A stretch of 40,658 bases of DNA from an uncultured Clostridia bacterium (GTDB taxonomy: Bacteria > Bacillota > Clostridia > Saccharofermentanales > Saccharofermentanaceae). The stretch spans positions 1 to 40,658 of the forward strand of contig CAMVBS010000017.1 of NCBI GenBank assembly GCA_947165785.1. The letters are read 5' to 3'. Below are positions 24,099 through 36,826 of this stretch, one piece after another (position 1 is the first letter of the stretch; the number at the start of each line of letters is the position of its first letter). A program made the translations under genes and the position numbers. A model generated the notes under the pieces. That model saw only the letters and a program-made list of their open reading frames with translations. It was not told the DNA's origin and searched no databases.

Positions 24099-25517
24099 AT
24101 GAAATACAGTTTTGAACTAAAGAAAGAAATTTATGAGAAGCATTGTGAAGGTTATGGATGCAAAATCCTTTCAAAGAAATATGGTATTCACCATGAAAAG
24201 ATTCGGTATTTTTGCAAATTAATAGATAAGCATGGGTTAGATGCAATCCTTCACAAACACACAGAACATTCTCCAGAGCATAAATTGGATGCAATTAATC
24301 GTGTGTTAGTAAACGGAGAATCTATTAAAGTTGTCGCTGTTGATCTTGGATTAACTTCGGACAGTGTATTGCGCCAATGGATTAAATCCTACATTGAGAA
24401 CGGGTATAATGTCGTTACCAAGAAGAAAGGCAGGCCTTCAACCCGTGGCAAAGAAAAAGAAGACGGTCGAAGAGCTGGAGAAGGAGAACGAACTCCTTCG
24501 CGAACAGCTGTTGAAGAAGACCGTAGAAGCCGAATACTTAAAAAAATTGTATGCCTTAACTCACGAGGAAGAAAAGAAGAAAAAGAACAACTGACCAAGG
24601 CAGTGACTGAGTTAAGGCAGGAATTAAAGTGTTCATTGGATTTTATCCTGGATACAATCAACACAAACGACTCACTGCCGGATCTCCCAAGGTCAGATTA
24701 CTACTATTGGAAGAACCGTATCGATCCGGATACGAAGAATACAGATCTTATGGATGCAATAGCAGCCATATATACAGATAACCATAAGCGTTACGGTTAT
24801 CGCAGGATCACATTGCAACTCAAGAACGAAGGTTGGGCAGTAAACCATAAGACCGTAAAGAGACTTATGTCTAAACTAAAGCTATACGGAATTACGCCAA
24901 GAGCCAAATACAAGTCCTATAAGGGCGATTTTAACGGAACAGTAGATAACAAGCTCCTGCACAGGAGAGTAGACACCAAGAAACACAAAACAGAATACAT
25001 AAGAGATTTCAGCACATCTGATGTCAACGAGAAATGGACCACGGATGTATCTGAATTCCATATTGCTGCCGGCAAACTATATCTATCTCCAATCTTAGAT
25101 ATGCATAACAGAGAGATAGTTTCCTATAGCATTTCAAAGCATCCTGGATACAAGCAGATAACAGACATGTTGAATAAGGCATTCAACAAATACGATGACC
25201 TCAGCAATCTCATATTCCATTCAGATCAGGGGTGGCAGTATCAGATGTATCACTACCGCAAAGCATTGAAAGAACGAGGAATAACACAATCCATGTCACG
25301 CAAGGGGAATTGCTTGGATAACAGCCCAATGGAGAACTTCTTTGGGAAGATGAAGAATGAGATGTTCTACGGACACGAATATGAATTCAAGACATTAGAG
25401 CAGTTACAAAAAGCTATGGAAGAATACATTGAGTACTACAACAAAGAGAGAATCCAGGTCAAACTGAAAGGACTGACTCCTTGCCAGGCAAGAAATCAGT
25501 CCTTATACTCGTTTTAA
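24099..25517 (+). CDS. IS3-family transposase, OrfA and OrfB in one frame after an apparent 1-nt insertion
   Basis: 472 residues as one open frame. The N-terminus (about 1-115) is a two-HTH OrfA ending VVTKKKGRPST. From about 116 to 162 this frame is Arg/Gly-rich and unlike any transposase, while the +1 frame over 24445-24594 encodes AKKKKTVEELEKENELLREQ and a further leucine-zipper heptad run, the expected end of OrfA. From about 163 on, the frame is OrfB with DDE residues in WTTDVSEFH, FHSDQGWQYQ and SPMENFFGKMKNE. Removing one C from CCC at 24442-24444 restores a normal OrfA, which would then pass to OrfB by the usual -1 shift at AAA-AAG (24580-24585). So either the OrfA zipper is lost and the element is crippled, or the fused product works without it. 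Confidence 0.8.
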   Translation: MKYSFELKKEIYEKHCEGYGCKILSKKYGIHHEKIRYFCKLIDKHGLDAILHKHTEHSPEHKLDAINRVLVNGESIKVVAVDLGLTSDSVLRQWIKSYIENGYNVVTKKKGRPSTRGKEKEDGRRAGEGERTPSRTAVEEDRRSRILKKIVCLNSRGRKEEKEQLTKAVTELRQELKCSLDFILDTINTNDSLPDLPRSDYYYWKNRIDPDTKNTDLMDAIAAIYTDNHKRYGYRRITLQLKNEGWAVNHKTVKRLMSKLKLYGITPRAKYKSYKGDFNGTVDNKLLHRRVDTKKHKTEYIRDFSTSDVNEKWTTDVSEFHIAAGKLYLSPILDMHNREIVSYSISKHPGYKQITDMLNKAFNKYDDLSNLIFHSDQGWQYQMYHYRKALKERGITQSMSRKGNCLDNSPMENFFGKMKNEMFYGHEYEFKTLEQLQKAMEEYIEYYNKERIQVKLKGLTPCQARNQSLYSF

Positions 25518-35512: not shown

Positions 35513-35541
35513 TTGTGTTACAGGCATACCCGTTATATACT
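35513..35541 (+). promoter_or_regulatory. Promoter of the large noncoding RNA
   Basis: TTGTGT (35513-35518), 17 bp, TATACT (35536-35541). The predicted start, about seven bases on, coincides with the 5' arm of the closing helix at 35548. The stretch 35380-35512 holds nothing recognisable. Confidence 0.7.
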
Positions 35542-35547
35542 TAAACT

Positions 35548-36034
35548 AGCTCCAGGGAATACGAGAACACAAAGTTTTCGAACCACGGTCGCCGACATAG
35601 ATCATTGATCTGTCGGAAGCGAGCAGCGATTGACGGGATGGGATGCCATCCGCAAGTCGCAGGTTGTAACAGTTTAGTCGATTCGGATTTTTGTCCGCGG
35701 TTGAGTGAGAGGTCGCCACCGATAGGAAAGGTTCGAGGTTTGAGACTTAACGGTACATCTTAATCGTGCGAACCGAGTAGCCGGTTTTAGTTTATGACAG
35801 CTGTTGATGAAGTGACAGCGATAAACGATGAAAGTGAGTAACGACTGATTAGGCGGTGAAAAGGGTCATTGTTTGGGAGTTACGTTAAGGGCAATGGCAA
35901 TCGGTTAGGTGTTATGGCTGATAGAGGCTCGGCACAGTAAAGGACTTGTTGGTTATGAGAGATCAGAGTGGATTGGTTCGCTGGAGCTTTTCTATGCATA
36001 AAATGTCGTTCTCGGAATTGGGGACGACTTTTTT
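35548..36034 (+). ncRNA. Large structured noncoding RNA, about 487 nt, family not assigned
   Basis: The region has no plausible gene yet is G-rich and full of nested inverted repeats. The ends pair: AGCTCCAG (35548-35555) with CTGGAGCT (35981-35988). Inside, in order, are CGAGAAC/GTTTTCG (35562-35568, 35574-35580), CCGACA/TGTCGG (35592-35597, 35611-35616) enclosing GATC/GATC, GGATGG/CCATCC (35636-35641, 35646-35651), CGGA/TCCG (35684-35687, 35694-35697), GGTTCG/CGAACC (35730-35735, 35769-35774), GTTTAT/ATAAAC (35790-35795, 35821-35826) enclosing GCTGT/ACAGC, and GTCATTG/CAATGGC (35865-35871, 35892-35898). It has a promoter at 35513-35541 and a terminator at 36005-36034. The layout is that of a housekeeping-sized RNA. 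It lacks the core motifs of RNase P RNA, tmRNA, SRP RNA and T-boxes. Large ornate classes such as ROOL are candidates, unverified. Confidence 0.75.
36005..36034 (+). terminator. Terminator of the large noncoding RNA
   Basis: GTCGTTCTC (36005-36013) pairs with GGGGACGAC (36020-36028), two wobbles, loop GGAATT, then six T. Confidence 0.9.
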
Positions 36035-36754: not shown

Positions 36755-36826
36755 CGGAGTATACGGGATTTGAACCCGTGCCCCCACACTTATGGTGTGG
36801 TGCGCTCCCAACTGCGCTAATACTCA
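36755..36826 (-). tRNA. tRNA-like gene with anomalous anticodon loop (apparent anticodon AUA)
   Basis: A full cloverleaf can be drawn on the minus strand: acceptor TGAGTAT with ATACTCC (6 of 7 pairs, U1-C72 mismatch), U8 A9, D arm GCGC-AGTTGGGA-GCGC, anticodon stem CCACA/TGTGG, loop CCATAAG, 4-nt variable region, T arm ACGGG-TTCAAAT-CCCGT, discriminator G. CCA is not encoded. The anticodon loop is abnormal: position 33 is C instead of U and positions 34-36 read AUA, which would be Tyr although bacterial tRNA-Tyr has a long variable arm and GUA. C32 and G38 could also pair. The fold is intact and a good promoter lies upstream, so it is expressed or recently was; it may be a degenerate tRNA or a tRNA with a special role. 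Confidence 0.7.

Follow-up and report, generated by a model that had tools for sequence, protein, structure and literature searches.

A probable new class of large structured RNA at a conserved chromosomal locus of Saccharofermentans-like Clostridia

We describe a structured RNA of 441 nt encoded in the DNA of a Saccharofermentans-like rumen clostridium, within a stretch of 40,658 nt that was analysed as a whole and is referred to here as the window. On the evidence of sequence comparisons, and as judged against Rfam, this RNA very probably represents a new class of large structured RNA. All 4227 models of Rfam 15 were scanned at an E-value of 10, with further scans at E 1-3, and neither the window nor several diverse members of the family gave a credible match even at E 10, the only matches near the RNA being those expected by chance. 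Nor did we find a description of this RNA in the literature searched, although some published motifs lie outside both Rfam and the open-access papers. The initial annotation of this locus had left two branches, namely, a divergent ROOL-like RNA or a new class, and the conserved structure, the RNA's own promoter and terminator, and the lack of an Rfam match all speak for the second.

Bacterial RNA classes that are as large and as complex as this one are few, and among the characterised ones several are ribozymes, scaffolds or cages. Large structured RNAs without an assigned job have precedents as a broad kind, and it is the class itself for which no Rfam relative was found. The putative class would offer about 100 sequences, which covary clearly and have fixed ends, together with a promoter and a chromosomal address that is conserved.

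Locus, ends and transcription signals

The RNA is encoded on contig C17, at a chromosomal locus, and is present as one copy in a genome assembly of 2.46 Mb. It is a compact member of a family whose length ranges from 246 to 624 nt, and from about 440 to 620 nt within the genus. The RNA and its flanking signals are placed as follows.

35548..35988, + strand: structured RNA, 441 nt (fold z −3.94, homologues, covariation)
35513..35518, + strand: −35 element TTGTGT (position-aligned promoter comparison, 95 loci)
35536..35541, + strand: −10 element TATACT, 17-nt spacer, 6 nt upstream of nucleotide 1 (promoter comparison, 95 loci)
36005..36034, + strand: intrinsic terminator (plain scan)

The minimum free energy of the + strand between 35548 and 36034 is −158.8 kcal/mol, versus −138.9 ± 5.0 kcal/mol for shuffled sequences (z −3.94; 0/100 shuffles), and the minus strand of the same region shows no excess folding over its shuffles (z −1.16). 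Distant homologues fold at z −4.8 to −5.0. Together with covariation above controls in the homologues, as detailed in the following section, these values bear out the structured RNA that had been proposed at this locus. Its ends are indeed self-closing, with AGCUCCAG (35548-35555) pairing with CUGGAGCU (35981-35988). The size first given, of about 490 nt, applies to the unit that includes the terminator, which measures 487 nt, but the conserved RNA itself is shorter, of about 441 nt.

The promoter that had been read upstream of the RNA agrees in position with the promoter of the homologues, but it is weak by simple consensus (TTGTGT-17-TATACT, with 8/12 consensus matches) and is missed by a plain promoter scan. 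When 95 loci were compared, the promoter-like element just 5' of nucleotide 1 reached a mean of 9.46/12, versus 4.04 for shuffled sequences. Most of the loci have a spacer of 16-17 nt, and in these 6-7 nt separate the end of the −10 element from nucleotide 1. The terminator, initially described as clean, was recovered by plain scan as a hairpin (36005-36028) followed by a T run. The absence of a credible gene also stands: the longest + strand frame wholly within 35548-36034 is of 52 aa, and the homologues vary by many indels in the alignment.

Conserved helices and covariation

The helices and conserved motifs of the RNA are listed here, with the evidence for each of them in brackets.

35548..35563, + strand: closing helix P1, 5' strand, AGCUCCAGGGAAUACG (alignment, covariation; common across the order)
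35974..35988, + strand: closing helix P1, 3' strand, UGGUUCGCUGGAGCU (alignment, covariation)
35588..35621, + strand: P2, GUCGCC, hairpin, GGAAGCG (alignment)
35620..35624 with 35927..35931, + strand: long-range helix, CGAGC with GCUCG (98.3% of cells paired)
35626..35660, + strand: P3 hairpin, GCGAUU...AGUCGC, with inner helix 35636-35640/35647-35651 (covariation, cross-genus variants)
35663..35667, + strand: helix 5, partner 35914-35918 (98.9% paired)
35674..35682, + strand: helix 6, 3-pair core 35678-35680/35902-35904, extendable to 9 pairs (covariation)
35695..35726, + strand: helices 7/8, conserved hairpin (six doubly changed pairs)
35759..35767, + strand: CUUAAuCGU, possible partner ACGUUAAG at 35882-35889 in the window (alignment)
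35764..35784, + strand: most conserved block, UCGUGCGAACCGAGUAGCCGG, of which 35780-35783 pairs with 35854-35857 (alignment)
35937..35952, + strand: 3' motif matching the AAAGGG element of relatives (read from alignments)

Covariation was evaluated in a sequence-only alignment of 36 members from the genus, with a consensus structure obtained by RNAalifold, and led to the following results. First, two-sided changes are seen in 27 of the 70 pairs of the consensus structure, and for 61 of the 70 pairs 97.0% of cells are paired. Second, the covariation score of 0.322 lies above that of both controls, namely, 0.181 ± 0.005 for shuffling, which ignores the relatedness of the sequences, and 0.04-0.08 for slid partners, a comparison that favours the structure because this was derived from the same alignment. 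Third, a home-made tree-based null, which is stricter than shuffling, found seven significant pairs when only the proposed pairs were considered; over all column pairs it had little power and returned one pair of the predicted structure. The number of supported helices, namely, 12, is somewhat higher than the roughly eight initially read by eye.

P1 extends beyond a G/G mismatch (GAAU.C with G.GUUC), and its 13 pairs are 99.6% paired among the 36 genus members, three of them doubly changed. P3, which comprises helices 3 and 4 (100% and 94% paired, respectively, with 8/11 pairs doubly changed), recurs in several other genera, and its sequence differs by lineage with the pairing kept, as in GCGAUU/AGUCGC, GUGGUU/AGCCAC, GCAGCU/AGCUGC, GCGGUC/GGUCGC and GUGAUU/AAUCAC. 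At P2, most of the lineages examined have a RYCGCC motif some 37-44 nt away from the 5' end, among them the window and the locus L241 from outside the order, and it was not found at this position in several members of families f2 and f4. In most of the genus the P2 arm is extended by an insertion that measures about 150 nt, the lineage of the window having the short form without it; this insertion and the range of 246-624 nt show much of the RNA to be dispensable. Relatives have, in the alignment, an ACACCG/CGGUGU-type helix at the site of CUUAAuCGU, whose pairing register with ACGUUAAG, as judged by eye for the lineage of the window, is a putative one.

Distribution of the RNA

The genomes compared were mostly MAGs. 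A model of the 120-nt core matched in 76/83 genomes of the genus, with one copy each except for G072, and gave no match in three well-completed genomes of the same genus (G006, G052 and G080). DNA similarity found the RNA in 74/148 relatives, and the contigs with the conserved block come mostly from rumen or gut Saccharofermentans-like MAGs, together with a few isolates; the Ruminococcaceae strains KHP2, YAD3003 and AB4001 are among the genomes that carry the RNA. At the level of the order, the 5' end, AGCTCCAGGGAWTRC, is present in 66/188 genomes from all four families, whereas a reversed-pattern control occurs in two genomes. Most of the loci that were read have a matching 3' end 246-624 nt downstream of the 5' motif, and a promoter just before it.

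Outside the order, sampling 391 genomes from the class yielded one true member, located at L241 1501-1775, with 275 nt and a fold z of −4.97, and the remaining matches to the 5' motif were without the 3' end. The L241 member is accompanied by a promoter-like sequence and a terminator-like hairpin. Among the genome matches as a whole, those to the bare 5' motif at L202, L204, L214, L239, L240, L242, L243, L246 and L247, with no 3' partner and no promoter, were left out as probably due to chance, and exact-pattern matches in unrelated genomes (Hoyosella, Shimia, Salinivenus and others) were discarded as chance.

In several genomes of families f3 and f4 the RNA is found twice in tandem, the two copies having diverged and both having a promoter of their own. 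Such copies were observed at L034 (4240-4493 and 4784-5047), L201 (5811-5499 and 5311-4907) and L205 (4964-5344 and from 5659). At L249, near the 3' end, there is a run of short AAAAGATC tandem repeats, within or next to an incomplete second copy of the RNA where the contig ends.

Functional interpretation

Taken as a whole, the explanation that we favour, with some reserve, is that of a new, independently transcribed and trans-acting RNA of the housekeeping type that would serve as an RNP scaffold. The promoter, the terminator, the single copy and the chromosomal address point to a trans-acting RNA, and a conserved core with expandable arms would be typical of RNAs that hold proteins or are catalytic. 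The scaffolding of proteins, as the specific mechanism, is suggested by analogy, with about even chances of being correct. A sigma-A-type promoter would drive transcription from about A35548, and the long-range P1 would then close the RNA on itself, with both ends protected. The multi-branched core, namely, P2, P3, the CGAGC/GCUCG junction and the GUGCGAACCGAGUAGCCGG block, may provide a platform for at least one protein, surrounded by peripheral arms that would grow or shrink between lineages. The RNA would act as an RNP scaffold, as proposed for OLE or raiA/ModT, which would set it apart from antisense regulators and from gene leaders. What speaks against this explanation is that much of the RNA is dispensable, that three well-completed genomes of the genus gave no core match, and that the convergent neighbours offer no link to a function.

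It is also tempting to speculate, more tentatively, that we are dealing with a housekeeping RNA machine that is nearly universal across the order, has protein partners or a catalytic activity of its own, and is unrelated to RNase P, tmRNA, SRP or 6S. If this were true, one bacterial order would possess an additional core RNA of the cell, so far undescribed. The RNA is amenable to in vitro synthesis and probing, and the members of 250-270 nt are a natural minimal version for structure work.

Among the alternatives to a protein scaffold, an RNA-only homo-oligomer, either a cage or a dimer, which would resemble ROOL, GOLLD or OLE in its action while being unrelated to them, is the one we take most seriously, although we still regard it as unlikely. 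The size, the ornate multi-branched fold, the self-closing ends and the variable peripheral arms would suit such an assembly, and each of these three RNAs assembles into RNA-only multimers (PMC12286853). However, ROOL and GOLLD belong to phages and prophages, in many cases close to tRNA islands (PMC12286853), whereas the structured RNA has no match in phage and plasmid collections, shows chromosomal synteny, and among viral contigs has 105 matches to its 5' motif of which 0/105 have the 3' partner nearby. Moreover, members of 246-275 nt would be small for a cage.

A regulatory role, through base-pairing with mRNAs or the titration of a regulator, seems rather improbable to us, since the RNA is very large and highly structured for one of that sort, even if a promoter and a terminator of its own, as well as the tandem diverged paralogues of some genomes, would also fit. 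There is, in addition, a small chance that the RNA is a ribozyme: its conserved core and variable periphery are reminiscent of an RNase P-type architecture, but no match was obtained among the ribozymes of Rfam.

Comparison with known RNA classes

We see a very small chance that the RNA belongs, in strongly diverged form, to one of the known families, be it raiA/ModT, OLE, ROOL, 6S, SRP, tmRNA or RNase P. What could suggest it is mainly raiA/ModT, an RNA of 215-260 nt from Clostridia, housekeeping-like, with its own sigma-A promoter and a neighbourhood that varies within the class (PMC11706538), whose size is near that of the shortest members described here. Nevertheless, besides the lack of a credible Rfam match already noted, specific models for ROOL, OLE, GOLLD, raiA, RNase P, tmRNA, SRP and 6S had no match at the RNA locus, where ARAGORN found no tmRNA either. 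Among the translations read, the downstream neighbours of the RNA are hpt-like and cytidylate-kinase-like, comFC or raiA being genes that may adjoin raiA/ModT (RF03072). The RNase P RNA, the tmRNA and the SRP RNA of the window's genome are found on other contigs (C74, C19 and C21, respectively), in keeping with the initial argument that core motifs of the first two are missing here.

With regard to ROOL, which forms an octameric cage, a true, full-length copy (RF03087, 227 bits) was found in G065, at C34:33040-33587 on the minus strand, the only one among 186 genomes of the order, which indicates that the ROOL search works. The same genome has the structured RNA on a different contig, C43, with no significant sequence similarity between the two; thus, the structured RNA is not ROOL, and the divergent-ROOL branch of the initial annotation had to be abandoned. 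Both RNAs are large, ornate and present in rumen Firmicutes, yet ROOL is associated with phages and prophages, whereas the structured RNA has a conserved chromosomal location and no match to an Rfam model. GOLLD is likewise large and ornate, with many members above 800 nt (PMC12286853), but it is associated with phages or tRNA islands. OLE, another large structured bacterial RNA, has a scaffold-like role (PMC12286853); the structured RNA differs from both in having no Rfam match, and from OLE in that no associated protein gene was identified at its locus.

A 6S reading was raised on the absence of a match to the 6S model in the window's own genome, and dropped when 6S was found in 108/186 genomes of the order, in 29/30 genera, elsewhere than the RNA locus. 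6S is an independently transcribed RNA with paired ends, and in this it resembles the structured RNA; the difference is that 6S (RF00013), with a model of 187 positions, is separately present in the order. In the genus of the window, 6S scores below the Rfam gathering cut-off where found. Because of these low scores, and of the missing match in the window's own genome, annotation pipelines may overlook 6S in this genus.

Genomic neighbourhood

At about 60 loci from several families, the genes downstream of the RNA are convergent with it and encode an hpt-like phosphoribosyltransferase and a cytidylate-kinase-like protein, names that come from reading some of the translations and not from a family search, and the upstream gene differs among loci. 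Such a conserved address favours vertical descent and, since these conserved neighbours are convergent, they give no functional link. In the lineage of the window, the upstream neighbour is what we take to be a DUF368-like membrane protein, and a small membrane protein and a tRNA gene are found downstream.

The remaining alternative, an untranslated or riboswitch-like element of the adjoining gene, can practically be dismissed, as the gene that begins some 140 nt further downstream in the lineage of the window would allow it but gene order already contradicts it, with a terminator between the RNA and that gene, a varying upstream gene, and a downstream gene that is convergent in most relatives, which argues against a leader or riboswitch.

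Two further observations concern the window. The tRNA gene at 36755-36826 (minus strand), called as Tyr with anticodon ATA, has C at position 33, which is usually U, and is thus odd or degenerate. At 24099-25517, a frame of 472 aa presumably corresponds to an IS3-type transposase, which it resembles.
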